Positions 5,000 through 19,790 of a stretch of DNA of 47,331 nt are shown here, one piece after another. Each line of letters starts with the position of its first letter. Within the stretch, counting starts at the first letter, position 1. The translations under genes were made by a program, and so were the position numbers. The stretch lies in IMG/VR virus record IMGVR_UViG_3300046747_000297, positions 1 through 47,331 of that record. One strand, given 5' to 3'. Below the pieces are notes generated by a model, which saw only the letters and a program-made list of their open reading frames with translations, made no database searches and was not told the DNA's origin. The stretch comes from a virus.

Positions 5000-5587
5000 A
5001 TGAACAAAGCCGACCTGCTCAAGTCCATGTCCGAGCTACACGCCTGTCCAGAAGCAACCGAGTATGTCCAAGACCACGCTTCGGACAGCGCAAAAGAGAT
5101 CGGGCAAACCTGTGATCGTCCGGACTGGCTGATCTGGTTTCTGGTCAGGCAGCCTACGGCACGCGCTAAGGTGATCAAGTTCTCGTTCTCTTGTGCGGAC
5201 CGAGCTGTAAGGCAGTACGCGCCTAAGGCACTAGAGGCCGACGGGCTGACAGCCGAGGCCGAGGCACTTAGAGCACTCCCTGAGATCGTGGACGAGAGAA
5301 CCGCCTACGCCGCCGACAACGCCGCCTACGCCGCCGCCAACGCCGCCTACGCCGCCTACGCCGCCTACGCCGCCAACGCCGCCAACGCCGCCTACGCCGC
5401 CAACGCCGCCAACGCCGCCTACGCCAACGCCGCCAACGCCGCCAACGCCGTCCACGCCGGCGCCGCCCACGCCGCCGCCGCCGCCTCCGCCGCCCACGCC
5501 GCCGGCGCCGACGCCGCCGCCGCCTACGCCGCCGAACGCACCCACCAGCTCAAAGACTTGCACGCGATCTGGTGTGAGGTCGTTTGA
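5000..5587 (+). CDS. Ala-rich triplet-repeat protein, copy A, 195 aa
   Basis: Unknown function. Residues 1-98 form a conserved head starting MNKADLLKSMSELHACPEAT with DWLIWFLVRQ and FSFSCADRAVRQYAPKALEA motifs. Residues about 100-178 are a three-residue repeat (Tyr/Asn/Asp/His-Ala-Ala). The tail KDLHAIWCEVV is non-repetitive. The layout, a head followed by an Ala-rich helical array, resembles phage proteins annotated as Imm-5-like putative immunity proteins; I recognise the style, not a proven role. A near-identical paralogue lies at 19039. The ATG at 5000 matches that of copy B and follows a leaderless-type promoter. Its stop overlaps the next TTG start. Confidence 0.75.
   Translation: MNKADLLKSMSELHACPEATEYVQDHASDSAKEIGQTCDRPDWLIWFLVRQPTARAKVIKFSFSCADRAVRQYAPKALEADGLTAEAEALRALPEIVDERTAYAADNAAYAAANAAYAAYAAYAANAANAAYAANAANAAYANAANAANAVHAGAAHAAAAASAAHAAGADAAAAYAAERTHQLKDLHAIWCEVV
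5300..5535 (+). repeat. 9-bp tandem repeat array, GCC-NNC-GCC type
   Basis: The coding repeat is built from 9-base units that read mostly TACGCCGCC or AACGCCGCC, giving Tyr-Ala-Ala and Asn-Ala-Ala. The variable codon almost always ends in C. The array would be prone to slippage and to recombination with the second copy at 19341-19577. The opposite strand yields long Gly/Val frames that are artefacts. Confidence 0.85.
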
Positions 5588-7239
5588 CCGAGCCCCTACC
5601 AGTCTTGTCCGCTAGCCAGCTGGCCACGTACCTGGATTGCCCTAGGAAGTGGTACATAGGTAGCGTCCTCAAGGTCCGCGAGCCTTCAAAGCCGTCCGCG
5701 CAGATCGGGACCATGGTCCACGGTATGCAGGAAGACTGGCTTACTCTTGGCCAGGAACCTGATATGTCGCGTGTCGTCCGGTACGTGACCAAGCACGGGA
5801 CAGTGATCACTAAGCGCCCGGCCGAGGTGTTTCTAAATCTGAGGCACCTACTCCCGCCCCCGGGGTCCATGATCGTAGAAGGTAACTTCACGTTCGAGAC
5901 CCCGGGGGCCCGCTGGCGGGGCGCGATTGACGGCCTGGGCGCGTTCAACGATCGCGCCTTACTCGAGGATACCAAAACCACATCCAGTCCGGTCTGGGCT
6001 ATGGACGCGAACGACCTGCTTACGGACGTCCAGAGGAATACGTACGCATGGCACGTTATGCAGAAGTACGAGGTCAATGAGATCGACACGCAGTGGACTT
6101 ACGGCCTCACGAATTTCTCACCGGACGCGCCAAAAGCTCAGTACGCTACACCTGACCAGGTAAGAAAGTGGAAGGCCTGGGTAGCAGCGAAAAAGCCCTT
6201 GGCCTGGGCTGTACGCGGGACGGCCGAGTATGGTCAGGTCAAGGTACAGGTCGAGAAAATCGACGCTTTGGCCCAGGAGCTTTACCAGATCCGGGCCAAG
6301 CGGCCGGACCCCTCAAAGGTCCGCGGTGTGGCCGCTTCTTGCCCAAAATACGAGGGCTGTCCTTATGCGAACACGGCCCATTGCTCACTCACGACAGCAG
6401 ACATTTACGGAAGGGACGATCAGAACATGGGGATCATGAACCTAGTCAAGGACCAGAAGGTAAAGCAGGCCGAGCTGGCCGCGTCCGCGGGCATGCCCCC
6501 GCCCGTGACCGAGGACGAGGCACCCCCGCCGCCCCCCGCCGCGGACGCCTGGGCCCCTGGTGACCCTTTGTGCGACGCGCAAAGGTACCTGATCGGTAAG
6601 CCTTTGTTCGTGGTGGCCATGGCCGCGGAGGTACCCCCGGAGCAAGACGTGGCCATGGCTTGGCCGGGCGCTATGCAGGCGTACAAGTACGACCCGGAAA
6701 GCGAGCTCACCCAGGAGATCCCGCCCGCGGTCAAGGCACGCTTGCTCGCGAGCGCCCAGGCCGCGGTCAAGGACACGGCCAAGGAAGCTGGTTACCCCGT
6801 CCAAAAGGACCCGATCAACGCCCCTGAGAAGCCTGCGTTCGCCGCCCCCTCACCCGAGGTCGCGGAAGCGCAGCACAAAGCCCGTCAAGAGCTCGTTGGG
6901 CAGATCCCTAAGTGCGCGGACGACGACAAGACCGAGGGTGGCACGTTCGAGGCCCTCAAGGCTGAATGCGCGCGCCTGGGTCTGAATCCTGAGGGTAAGA
7001 AACTCCGAACCGCCGGGTACCGTAACCTTCTGAGCGCGTACTGGGCGAACGCCCCGCGCACGGGCCAGGCCACGGCCGCCGTGTCCGAGCCCCCGCCACC
7101 CCCGCCGCCGGCCGAGGACGAGGTCCCCGCGCCCGCGACGCCTGAACTTTCGGCCTCCGACGAGCTTCTGGCGAACCGTGTCGCGGACATCCTGATCACC
7201 CGCGTGCTCGCTTACGCGCAGAAAGCGGGGCTGGTGTGA
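5584..7239 (+). CDS. PD-(D/E)XK RecB/Cas4-like nuclease, 551 aa
   Basis: Probable DNA exonuclease for phage recombination or replication. The nuclease core spans about residues 8-270: SASQLATYLDCPRKWY at the N-terminus, GTMVHG (His46), IDGLG (Asp116), LEDTK (Asp129/Lys131) and QRNTY (Gln150/Tyr154). Cys19 plus Cys253, Cys259 and Cys267 match the four-cysteine iron-sulfur site of AddB/Cas4-type nucleases. The rest is a long extension with proline-rich linkers. The likely start is TTG at 5584, overlapping the upstream stop as TTGA. It sits with helicase, ssDNA-binding candidate and metallophosphoesterase genes, as in a recombination module. Confidence 0.85.
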   Translation: MTEPLPVLSASQLATYLDCPRKWYIGSVLKVREPSKPSAQIGTMVHGMQEDWLTLGQEPDMSRVVRYVTKHGTVITKRPAEVFLNLRHLLPPPGSMIVEGNFTFETPGARWRGAIDGLGAFNDRALLEDTKTTSSPVWAMDANDLLTDVQRNTYAWHVMQKYEVNEIDTQWTYGLTNFSPDAPKAQYATPDQVRKWKAWVAAKKPLAWAVRGTAEYGQVKVQVEKIDALAQELYQIRAKRPDPSKVRGVAASCPKYEGCPYANTAHCSLTTADIYGRDDQNMGIMNLVKDQKVKQAELAASAGMPPPVTEDEAPPPPPAADAWAPGDPLCDAQRYLIGKPLFVVAMAAEVPPEQDVAMAWPGAMQAYKYDPESELTQEIPPAVKARLLASAQAAVKDTAKEAGYPVQKDPINAPEKPAFAAPSPEVAEAQHKARQELVGQIPKCADDDKTEGGTFEALKAECARLGLNPEGKKLRTAGYRNLLSAYWANAPRTGQATAAVSEPPPPPPPAEDEVPAPATPELSASDELLANRVADILITRVLAYAQKAGLV

Positions 7240-11375: not shown

Positions 11376-12029
11376 ATGGGTGTGTACGACAAAGCAGACG
11401 ATCTCGACCCCGGGTCAGCGCGCGAGCGCCTGGCCAACCTTCCCGCGGGCTACTACCCCCGTCTCAAGGTGATCAAGTGTGAGGGCTGGCAGGACCAGAC
11501 CAGCACCAAAAACCACTACTACAAGATCGAAGTCGAAGTGGTGGACCCCGGAGCGACGGGGGCCGAGGTCGGCCGACGCGGGTCTTTGTTCTGTCAGATC
11601 GCCGGCAACAGTCACGACTACGATATCAGCGAGCTCGCGGCCGTGAAGTTGGCGATCGGCTGTATCTTTGGCTATCGGTCCATGGACGAGATCAAAGCCA
11701 AGATCAAGGGCTCGACCCTCGAGGGCGCGCGCGCTGGCGACGGTATTTCTCTGGCCGGCAAGGAATTCGCGGCCAAGATTTGGATCAAGCCGAACAAGAA
11801 GGACCCCACGGCCGAGGGCTACCAGAAGTTCGCGGCCGAGCCCGTGGGCGGTTTCGCTAAGGATGGCGCCGCGCCCGGTTCGGCCCCGCCCCCTCCCGCG
11901 GACGGCCCCCCGCCGCCCCCTAGCGAGAGCAAGATCCCTGCAGGCTGGAAGGTCCACCCGTCAGATTCCAAGTGGATCTATGAGGTCGCGGACAAGAAGA
12001 ACATGCGGAAGAATCCAGACCTGTCCTAA
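11376..12029 (+). CDS. putative ssDNA-binding protein, 217 aa
   Basis: Not confidently recognised. Residues about 20-150 appear beta-rich (YYPRLKVIKCEGW, NHYYKIEVEVVDPG, GSLFCQIAG, FAAKIWIKPNK), followed by a proline-rich flexible linker (SAPPPPADGPPPPPSES) and a C-terminal segment GWKVHPSDSKWIYEV. The globular-plus-linker layout and position between helicase and metallophosphoesterase fit phage single-strand binding or annealing accessory proteins; that is inference. The ATG at 11376 has GAGGT upstream. Confidence 0.45.
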   Translation: MGVYDKADDLDPGSARERLANLPAGYYPRLKVIKCEGWQDQTSTKNHYYKIEVEVVDPGATGAEVGRRGSLFCQIAGNSHDYDISELAAVKLAIGCIFGYRSMDEIKAKIKGSTLEGARAGDGISLAGKEFAAKIWIKPNKKDPTAEGYQKFAAEPVGGFAKDGAAPGSAPPPPADGPPPPPSESKIPAGWKVHPSDSKWIYEVADKKNMRKNPDLS

Positions 12030-12091
12030 GCAGGTGGTGCCACCCGCGGTAAGGCATGAATCCCGGCGCCTGGCCCTCGTATAGGGGCCCT

Positions 12092-12168
12092 TTCAAGCGA
12101 GCAACTCAGGATAGCTAAAGGCTGATCACCTACCCGGTGACGACTGGGTCTTGGGTTGCTCACTTGAG
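12092..12168 (+). other. long RNA stem-loop A
   Basis: TTCAAGCGAGCAACTCAGG (12092-12110) pairs with 12150-12168. Of 19 positions, 15 are Watson-Crick, 3 G-U and 1 a C-A mismatch. The loop region contains a smaller hairpin TCACC(12126-12130)/GGTGA(12136-12140). A stem of this quality is far beyond chance for an intergenic stretch. Confidence 0.7.
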
Positions 12169-12230
12169 GGTCGTGGCTTAGATGGTACGCGGTAAGTTCG
12201 TCCGACGCGCAAGGACGGCCCCTCACTTTT

Positions 12231-12317
12231 TCAAGGCAGGCCGCGACCGGGGCTAATCTCCTGGTCCTGTGGTGGCGCTCGGAATGGTCCGGGCGTTTAG
12301 GTCGCGGTCTGCCTTGA
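12231..12317 (+). other. long RNA stem-loop B abutting a ribosome site
   Basis: TCAAGGCAGGCCGCGACC (12231-12248) pairs with 12300-12317 over 18 positions with a single G-U. Inside, CGCTCGGA (12276-12283) pairs with TCCGGGCG (12288-12295) around a tetraloop. The 3' strand ends on the first bases of the GAGAGG ribosome site (12316-12321) of the 12327 gene, so folding could modulate its translation. Confidence 0.7.
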
Positions 12318-12326
12318 GAGGTCCAG

Positions 12327-12572
12327 TTGTCCATACAAGAACTGATCAAGCAAGCGAAGAAAAAAGCTGCTGTAGGCGCGGCACTTACGCCCGCGGCCGT
12401 TCGCGACCTGCGAAAAGTTCTGGCGGCGAACGACCGTGAAGGTAACCGCAAGCGCCGGGTCTCGTGCCTTCAGTTCGTGGCCTTCCTAAAGAAGGAACAC
12501 AAGATCGATGTAAACGGGGCCACGGTGGTCAAGTTCATGCAGACGGCGTTGGGTCGAGGGTGGGAGAAATGA
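12327..12572 (+). CDS. hypothetical basic protein, 81 aa
   Basis: Unrecognised. It starts at TTG 12327 (MSIQELIKQAKKKAAVGAAL), supported by GAGAGG five bases upstream. A helical basic N-terminus is followed by a segment CLQFVAFLKKEHKIDVNGATVVKFM that looks like a compact helical DNA-binding or wHTH-type domain. It ends in an ATGA overlap with the metallophosphoesterase. Its ribosome site touches the 3' end of RNA stem B, so it may be controlled by the preceding structured segment. Confidence 0.6.
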   Translation: MSIQELIKQAKKKAAVGAALTPAAVRDLRKVLAANDREGNRKRRVSCLQFVAFLKKEHKIDVNGATVVKFMQTALGRGWEK

Positions 12573-13618
12573 GCCGAACGGACAAACTGATCGAGACGGC
12601 CGCCAAGGGTGAGACCTTGCGCCAACAGGCCCAGATCAAGGGCCTGAAACAGGAAGTGCGGCTACTTGAGCAATCCTTGCACGCGGCCAACGTCCGGGCC
12701 GAGGTCGTGGCTGGCCTCAAGGCCGGCACCCGCCCAGCCAAGCCGATCAAGCACCGGGCCAACATTCACCGCCGCGTGGCCACGCCCGTGTTCCTGTTCT
12801 CGGACTGGCACGTGGAAGAAGTGGTCAAGTCCGAGAAGGTCTTGGGCCTGAACGCGTACACGCCAGAGATTGCAGCGGGCCGCATTGAGCGCCTAGGCGA
12901 GGCGTGCTCGTGGATGATCGAGCACCACCGGACCTCGTTCGAGATCCGCGAGTGCGTGGTGGCCTTGGCCGGCGACTTCATGTCCGGCTACATCCACGAT
13001 GAGCTTGTGGAAGGTAACGCCCTGTCCCCTGTGCAGACGATGCTTTTCCTACAGGAACACCTGACCAATCTCCTGAACAGGATCCTGGCCGTACCCGGTA
13101 TGGAACGGATCGCGATCGTCACGAACTTTGGGAACCACGGCCGGACCACGCACAAGATCCGCGTGTCTACTGGTGCCGAGAACTCGTACGAGTGGCTTCT
13201 GTACCACCAGCTCAAGCGCGCGTTTGCGCACGAGAAGCGGATCGACTGGACGATCGCCTCGGGTGAGTTCGTCCATATCAAGGTGCATGACCTTGACCTC
13301 GGGTTCACCCACGGTAACGCGGTCAACTACGGAGGCGGCGTAGGTGGTATCACGATCCCGATCAAGCGCGCGATACCTCGCTGGGACAGCTTCCAGCGCG
13401 CGGACATTTGGCACATGGGCCACTTCCACCAGCTGCACGACTTGCCCGGCCTGGTGGTGAACGGGTCCCTGATCGGGACCGGACCGTACGGAATGCGCGT
13501 AGGTGGGTACGAGATCCCCGCCCAGGCGAGCTATCTGATCGACGCGAAAAGAAAGGTCAAGTGTATGAGTACGACTCTATGGCCCGTGGGTTCGAGCTTT
13601 GGTCAGGTGACGAAATGA
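12569..13618 (+). CDS. calcineurin-like metallophosphoesterase, 349 aa
   Basis: Two-metal phosphoesterase of the Mre11/SbcD superfamily type. Motifs in order: SDWH (Asp79, His81), AGDFMSG (Asp136), GNHGR (Asn189, His190), FTHGN (His248) and MGHFH (His285, His287), a complete active site. A coiled-coil-like N-terminus precedes the catalytic domain. The ATG at 12569 overlaps the upstream stop (ATGA); longer upstream readings are not used. It is probably a DNA nuclease in the recombination/repair module, though a phosphatase acting on another substrate is possible. Confidence 0.85.
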   Translation: MSRTDKLIETAAKGETLRQQAQIKGLKQEVRLLEQSLHAANVRAEVVAGLKAGTRPAKPIKHRANIHRRVATPVFLFSDWHVEEVVKSEKVLGLNAYTPEIAAGRIERLGEACSWMIEHHRTSFEIRECVVALAGDFMSGYIHDELVEGNALSPVQTMLFLQEHLTNLLNRILAVPGMERIAIVTNFGNHGRTTHKIRVSTGAENSYEWLLYHQLKRAFAHEKRIDWTIASGEFVHIKVHDLDLGFTHGNAVNYGGGVGGITIPIKRAIPRWDSFQRADIWHMGHFHQLHDLPGLVVNGSLIGTGPYGMRVGGYEIPAQASYLIDAKRKVKCMSTTLWPVGSSFGQVTK

Positions 13619-19038: not shown

Positions 19039-19632
19039 ATGAACAAAGCCGATCTGCTCAAGTCCATGTCCGAGCTACACGCCTGTCCAGAAGCAACCAA
19101 GTACGTTCAAAACCACGCTTCGGCCAGCGCAAAGGAGATCGGGCAAACCTGTGATCGTTTGGACTGGCTGATCTGGTTCTTGGTCAGGCAGCCTGCGGCA
19201 CGCGCTAAGGTGATCAAGTTCTCGTTTTCCTGTGTGGACCGAGCTGTAAGGCAGTACGCGCCAAAGGCACTAGAGGCCGCCGGGCTGACAGCCGAGGCCG
19301 AGGCACTTAGGGCACTCCCAGAGATCGTGGACGAGAAAACCGCCTACGCCGCCCGCGCCGCCGCCTACGCCGCCAACGCCGCCGCCGACGCTGCCGCCAA
19401 CGCCGCCGCCGACGCTGCCGCCACCTACGCCGCCAACGCCGCCAACGCCGCCTACGCCGCCAACGCCGCCGGCGCCGACGCCGCCAACGCCGTCCACGCC
19501 GGCGCCGCCCACGCCGCCTACGCCGCCTCCGCCGCCCACGCCGCCGGCGCCGACGCCGCCGCCGCCTACGCCGCCGAACGCACCCACCAGCTCAAAGACT
19601 TGCACGCGATCTGGTGTGAGGTCGTGTCGTGA
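19039..19632 (+). CDS. Ala-rich triplet-repeat protein, copy B, 197 aa
   Basis: Paralogue of the 5000-5587 protein. Residues 1-98 and the last 15 residues are nearly identical, and the DNA of the head is roughly 90% identical, indicating recent duplication or gene conversion. The central three-residue repeat differs in order and number (more Ala-Asp and Ala-Ala units). It has its own promoter at 19003-19032 and an ATG only 6 bases after the -10. It overlaps the next gene by GTGA. As for copy A, it resembles Imm-5-like putative immunity proteins and no activity can be proven; DNA mimicry, immunity or structural roles are all open. Confidence 0.75.
   Translation: MNKADLLKSMSELHACPEATKYVQNHASASAKEIGQTCDRLDWLIWFLVRQPAARAKVIKFSFSCVDRAVRQYAPKALEAAGLTAEAEALRALPEIVDEKTAYAARAAAYAANAAADAAANAAADAAATYAANAANAAYAANAAGADAANAVHAGAAHAAYAASAAHAAGADAAAAYAAERTHQLKDLHAIWCEVVS
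19341..19577 (+). repeat. 9-bp tandem repeat array, second copy
   Basis: Same 9-base unit class as 5300-5535 (mostly AACGCCGCC, TACGCCGCC, GACGCCGCC). Unit order differs between copies, the expected trace of slippage or unequal exchange after duplication. Confidence 0.85.
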
Positions 19633-19790
19633 CCGAGGTCCAAACCATACCCCTTCGCGAGCAGGACGAGATCGCGTTCGCGTTGAATCTCTTGGCGCGC
19701 AAGTACGCAAAGAGACAGCTCAAGGATCTGACCAAGGAAGCCAAGAAGCGCGTCCTTACTAGGTTCACGGGCCGCCGAGGTGTGCTGTGA
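19629..19790 (+). CDS. small helical protein, 53 aa
   Basis: Unrecognised. GTG at 19629 overlaps the upstream stop and the end overlaps the next GTG, so it is locked into the operon. The sequence is helical and basic towards the C-terminus (LARKYAKRQLKDLTKEAKK, RVLTRFTGRR). It resembles small phage proteins of unknown function found near Holliday-junction resolvases. Confidence 0.55.
   Translation: MTEVQTIPLREQDEIAFALNLLARKYAKRQLKDLTKEAKKRVLTRFTGRRGVL

Follow-up and report, generated by a model that had tools for sequence, protein, structure and literature searches.

In the early gene cluster of the phage studied here, the stretch between the genes p217 and p81 (positions 12030–12326 of the window, by which we mean the whole 47,331-base stretch of DNA analysed) is a non-coding gap that holds two tandem branched hairpins with long stems; the second hairpin appears to hide the p81 start signal. 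With slightly better than even confidence, we read this gap as an RNA lock that acts in cis between the cistrons: relative to the SSB-like gene upstream, the genes behind it would be translated less, or conditionally, and RNase III possibly opens the lock. This leader reading is preferred because the gap lies in a same-strand operon with no detected promoter or terminator of its own, because the ribosome-binding site of the next gene is predicted to be buried in it, and because long stems recur at the same gene junction in relatives. The first-pass annotation had proposed either a long leader or a novel structured RNA of phages: our analysis supports the former, while little was found that speaks specifically for an independent RNA gene.

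The window (IMG/VR record IMGVR_UViG_3300046747_000297) has a G+C content of about 62–63% and encodes a tail sheath, baseplate, portal, terminase, amidase and tyrosine integrase, and therefore probably derives from a temperate contractile-tailed phage. Its first 25 kb found no match among the phages of the annotated collection. The early genes all lie on the plus strand, in the order PD-(D/E)XK nuclease (from 5584), exonuclease (8097), helicase (9260), p74 (11104), p217 (11376), the gap, p81 (12327), a metallophosphoesterase (12569), other genes and PolA (16819). This early/replication module is flanked by a direct repeat of 600 bp with 91% identity (5000–5592 and 19039–19637 of the window), each copy of which encodes a protein of about 200 residues (MNKADLLKSMSELHACPEA...) with no Pfam match.

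The first-pass annotation saw no gene in 12030–12326, and the coding analysis bears this out. The gap is bordered by the stop of the upstream gene at 12029 and by the next plausible gene, which begins at the TTG at 12327; within it each plus-strand frame contains four to five stops, codon periodicity is absent, and the sole open frame of the minus strand has a negative coding score. Coordinates of the element, its parts and the genes around it are collected in Table 1.

Table 1. The intercistronic element and its flanking genes, with positions in the window.
Feature	Position	Strand	Evidence
Non-coding intercistronic element, whole	12030..12326	+	Stops, codon scores; fold of 12000–12360, z −3.6
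Hairpin A: Y-shaped, stem of 22 pairs with one bulge and one mismatch, two small hairpins on top	12086..12172	+	z score, shuffles
Hairpin B: stem of 22 pairs without interruption, topped by hairpins of 7 and 10 pairs	12225..12322	+	Energy, shuffles
UUUUUC, masking strand facing GAGAGG, in the 5′ foot of hairpin B	12227..12232	+	Pairing list
GAGAGG, Shine–Dalgarno-like, of p81, in the foot of hairpin B	12316..12321	+	Mean unpaired probability 0.02; opening costs 9.4 kcal/mol
p217, gene just upstream, putative SSB-like family	11376..12029	+	hhalign to family profile, gene order
p81, small orphan gene, TTG start 5 nt past the Shine–Dalgarno	12327..12572	+	Coding score +0.31
Gene for metallophosphoesterase/exonuclease, with a 4-base overlap with p81	12569..13618	+	phrog_284, E 5.5e-30

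Both of the long inverted repeats from which the structure was originally recognized are present, one at 12092–12110/12150–12168 with a single mismatch (C/A) plus G-U pairs, the other at 12231–12248/12300–12317 with one G-U, and the earlier description of the gap as a non-coding region with two branched long-stem hairpins holds overall. The outer stem of hairpin A consists of segments of 5, 5 and 12 pairs separated by a 2-nt bulge and the mismatch. Against 200 shuffles, hairpin A reaches z −5.5 on the plus strand and −4.4 on the minus strand, and hairpin B −8.0 and −6.0, with a folding energy for hairpin B of −63 kcal/mol on the plus strand versus −44 kcal/mol on the minus strand. The deviations in the stems are mostly G-U, as had been noted at the outset, and the RNA of the plus strand folds better than that of the minus strand. 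In 1000 dinucleotide shuffles of the region the best stem was never equalled, and neither was the second best (0/1000 each). Five smaller hairpins had also been proposed; these stand where a pair of them tops A or B, but elsewhere they are no better than shuffles (12030–12091 alone z +0.7, 12172–12230 alone z +1.0), so the small hairpins are significant only as the heads of the two long stems. Folding energy is not what sets the region apart: other 120-nt windows of the genome also fall below z −5, and energies lower than that of hairpin B occur in several 98-nt windows, mostly within genes. The exceptional feature is the presence of long stems in a non-coding gap. Comparison of A and B for signs of duplication found a shared TTTCAAG-N16-GCTAA, with p 0.0125 in register and 0.285 for the best local match, which makes a duplication weakly indicated at most.

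The 3′ arm of hairpin B contains the Shine–Dalgarno sequence of p81, which in the predicted fold pairs with the U-rich strand at the 5′ foot of the same hairpin, and the p81 start codon has an unpaired probability of 0.01–0.11. In short context, opening the p81 start would cost 14.9 kcal/mol, as against at most 9.3 kcal/mol for 17 other plus-strand starts of the window, and in long context 23.8 kcal/mol, the highest of the 18. The GTG start of PolA is the second most closed of the 18 in long context (21.1 kcal/mol), and some further starts of the window are also rather closed; that of p217 is among the most open, at 6.7 kcal/mol. Hairpin B thus appears, from these modelled folds, to cover the start signal of p81. 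The metallophosphoesterase gene, as the gene downstream, would share the control of p81, and we infer that translation of both is lowered or conditional.

Searches for known families and for sequence relatives returned nothing of this kind. With RNA family models (Rfam 15, including riboswitches, introns and large phage RNAs) the whole window gave no match at gathering thresholds, and relaxing the limit to E 10 brought up only Actino-pnp, at 13.4 bits against the 47.7 required, so the possibility that the first-pass annotation had set against its own reading, that the segment clearly matches an intron or riboswitch already described, did not materialize. ARAGORN found no tRNA or tmRNA gene in the window, a terminator scan found no intrinsic terminator at 11800–12700, a search with the sigma-70 consensus (the only promoter model used) found no promoter near the element, neither hairpin is followed by a U tract, and there are no iterons in the region. 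Megablast and blastn against phages gave no sequence relative of the 12030–12326 RNA, scans of IMG/VR with single proteins as queries (p217, the metallophosphoesterase, PolA) were empty, and none of 73 loci reached through a metallophosphoesterase alignment has such an RNA. A scan of IMG/VR for TTTCAAG-N16-GCTAA...CTTGAG returned 89 stretches with at most 10 of 14 stem pairs, which we judged to be chance matches, and a 329-nt gap in one locus (L014) was set aside as a candidate structured RNA since it appears to be coding. Nor did we find literature on exactly such an arrangement. The element is therefore an orphan, and the claim made for it rests on position, architecture and folding.

The genes on either side differ in how far they can be placed. 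By HMM alone p217 gave weak results (E 1.6, then 0.0013 upon iteration), while hhalign of p217 to a family profile built without it gave a probability of 96% and E 2e-9; mainly from this one profile comparison and from gene order, p217 is probably a member of the family found behind the helicase in relatives. Neither p217 nor this post-helicase family has a relative in Pfam, PHROG or PDB, and it is size, position and a Pro-rich tail that suggest that the family is SSB-like. For p81, a relative spotted by eye in another locus (L020) failed to gain support from BLASTP. The pentamer TGTCC occurs both at the end of p217 (12022–12026) and at the start of p81 (12328–12332), in the same frame and 306 bases apart, and is taken as a coincidence.

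To find relatives of the cluster we relied on gene order; more than 100 distant IMG/VR loci were reached with PolA and helicase profiles, and in these the usual order is helicase, a gene of 150–300 residues and PolA. For 82 distinct loci we took the best stem within the 150 nt that follow the p217-family gene, and compared it with 745 control stretches after other genes, whose 95th percentile served as the cut-off. Long stems exceed this cut-off in 29 of the 82 loci versus 5% of the control (Fisher p 3.4e-15), a result obtained with stems scored by simple pairing rules, starts assigned by script and a family that takes in highly diverged members; without the window and L178 (IMGVR_UViG_3300046714_000321), the locus most like it, the count is 27 of 80. 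When a 330-nt stretch is considered, with random positions as the control, L178 ranks first and the window third of the 82. Among 48 such post-gene stems, G-U outnumbers A-C by 52 to 18 (p 3e-5) under a scoring that treats the two alike, and folding is better on the plus strand in 33; U-rich tails follow 19 of the 48, and A-rich stretches precede 5. The stems in relatives thus look like features of transcript RNA, some of them terminators. Some lie within the start of polA, and the slot is therefore not always an intergenic gap; as many are terminator-like or lie within polA, they need not share a function with the element of the window. Automatic placement of both starts succeeded in 31 relatives, and among these the polA start costs more to open than that of the p217-family gene (median 12.4 versus 5.9 kcal/mol, p 2.7e-6); the same direction is seen in 12 of the 14 in which the two genes adjoin.

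L178 repeats the plan of the window most closely. Directly after its p217-family gene, a 309-nt gap (z −6.6) holds two tandem Y hairpins (z −5.5 and −7.7), of which the second is the longer and, as in the window, reaches the Shine–Dalgarno sequence of the next gene and is not followed by a U tract; the plus strand is favoured here too. The two loci differ in that the stems of L178 have 14 and about 28 pairs and a different gene comes next; they share a common plan and no sequence similarity. Terminator-like stems directly follow the p217-family gene in L188, L217, L259, L277 and L218. Those of L188, L217 and L259 resemble the window in their junction and in having long plus-strand stems, with that of L188 also branched, but they carry U tracts, which the window hairpins lack. 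In five other loci (L179, L180, L181, L186, L191) the interval from the SSB-like gene to PolA contains tRNA genes (Leu, Gln, Tyr), and in L217 a tRNA-like cloverleaf whose loops are degenerate and whose anticodon cannot be read (L217:5501–5573) comes directly after the SSB-like gene and is followed by the strong terminator-like stem.

Intercistronic hairpins processed by RNase III are reportedly a feature of T7-type phages (Dunn and Studier 1973, as cited in PMC5371410). Like these, the hairpins of the window are long and lie between genes of a polycistronic phage mRNA; unlike them, they occur in a phage of a different type, in which processing by RNase III is only proposed, and to our knowledge the T7 sites do not bury the start of the next gene as hairpin B would. 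The leaders of lambda cIII and Escherichia coli adhE, in which occlusion of the ribosome-binding site is relieved by RNase III according to PMC5371410, are alike in that the ribosome-binding site of a phage or bacterial mRNA lies within RNA secondary structure, with both Shine–Dalgarno and start codon predicted to be paired in the intact RNA, and in the 22-pair duplex, about two helical turns, that both outer stems of the window provide. Since the same paper gives 22 nt as the minimum size of an RNase III target (PMC5371410), the two stems could possibly be opened by that enzyme. Compared with the leaders as presented there, the window element is unrelated in sequence, consists of two tandem branched hairpins and occupies an intercistronic gap. 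That the host RNase III cuts the 22-pair stems, as this analogy would suggest, is speculative.

Other explanations have to account for the same observations. The hairpins could act on the 3′ end of the upstream message, ending or attenuating transcription or protecting the 3′ end of the p217 mRNA, with the burial of p81 a by-product; U-tailed, terminator-like stems are indeed frequent in this slot (19 of 48, among them those of L188, L217, L259 and L218), but the absence of a U tract after the window hairpins, the empty terminator scan and the equally tail-less second hairpin of L178 make this unlikely. We consider it less probable still that the gap is an independent small RNA gene whose product works in trans, with targets in the host or the phage for instance: it is stable, branched and non-coding, and its slot houses tRNA genes in L179, L180, L181, L186 and L191 and the odd tRNA-like fold in L217, yet its 3′ hairpin is built into the start of p81, and neither a promoter or terminator, nor an Rfam match, nor a relative elsewhere was found.

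The long inverted repeats within a replication gene cluster would also suit an element that works as DNA, such as a replication origin, a single-strand initiation hairpin or a recombination site extruded as a cruciform. The large difference between the strands in the energy of hairpin B, the mostly G-U deviations, the lack of iterons and an overall G+C content of about 62–63% all speak against this, and we give it little credence. An intron or a translational bypass that splits one gene into p217 and p81 is rejected as very improbable: although the two reading frames agree and the TGTCC repeat permits an in-frame join across 306 bases, no Rfam intron family is detected even at E 10, related proteins stop soon after a similar aromatic C-terminal motif without a p81-like domain, and p81 has a Shine–Dalgarno sequence of its own.

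Under the preferred reading of an intercistronic lock, the two tandem branched hairpins would stand between p217, with its open start, and the overlapping pair of p81 and the metallophosphoesterase gene. As long as the mRNA is intact, the ribosome-binding site of p81 would be paired with the foot of hairpin B, so that ribosomes would hardly start there; more speculatively, a cut by RNase III would make the p81 start accessible and leave the released p217 mRNA with a 3′ end that is protected. As a long hairpin is often found at the same place in relatives, the element probably sets the amount of each protein. Phages need many copies of SSB and few of polymerase, though the two are often encoded on one mRNA. 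It is thus conceivable, and we advance it only tentatively, that phages of the group with helicase, SSB-like gene and PolA carry RNA locks at one junction, in many designs unrelated to one another, such that the gene after the SSB-like gene, usually that of the polymerase, is translated poorly or conditionally; the tandem Y hairpins of the window would be one such design, maybe opened by a phage protein or by RNase III during infection. If this were true, RNA structure at a fixed gene junction would balance SSB against polymerase in many uncultured phages, the design of the lock would have been replaced repeatedly while its position was kept, and functional RNA structure could be found by gene position without sequence conservation.

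Two further observations concern polA in the relatives. In five loci (L172, L258, L247, L229, L255) the polA start pairs, over 15–17 pairs, with the codons of an SDRVLVG motif about 155 nt downstream, within the coding sequence and the first 190 nt of polA; changes on both sides at three pairs among the five sequences lend this pairing modest support, from few sequences. In four others (L187, L177, L176, L216) the polA start pairs with other downstream sites. The PolA of L009 (L009:1282–3552), and likewise that of L192, is split, with a stop at about 2346, a restart at 2638 and an unrelated open reading frame of about 95 residues between; we considered a structured intron here and rejected it in favour of an inserted small gene.
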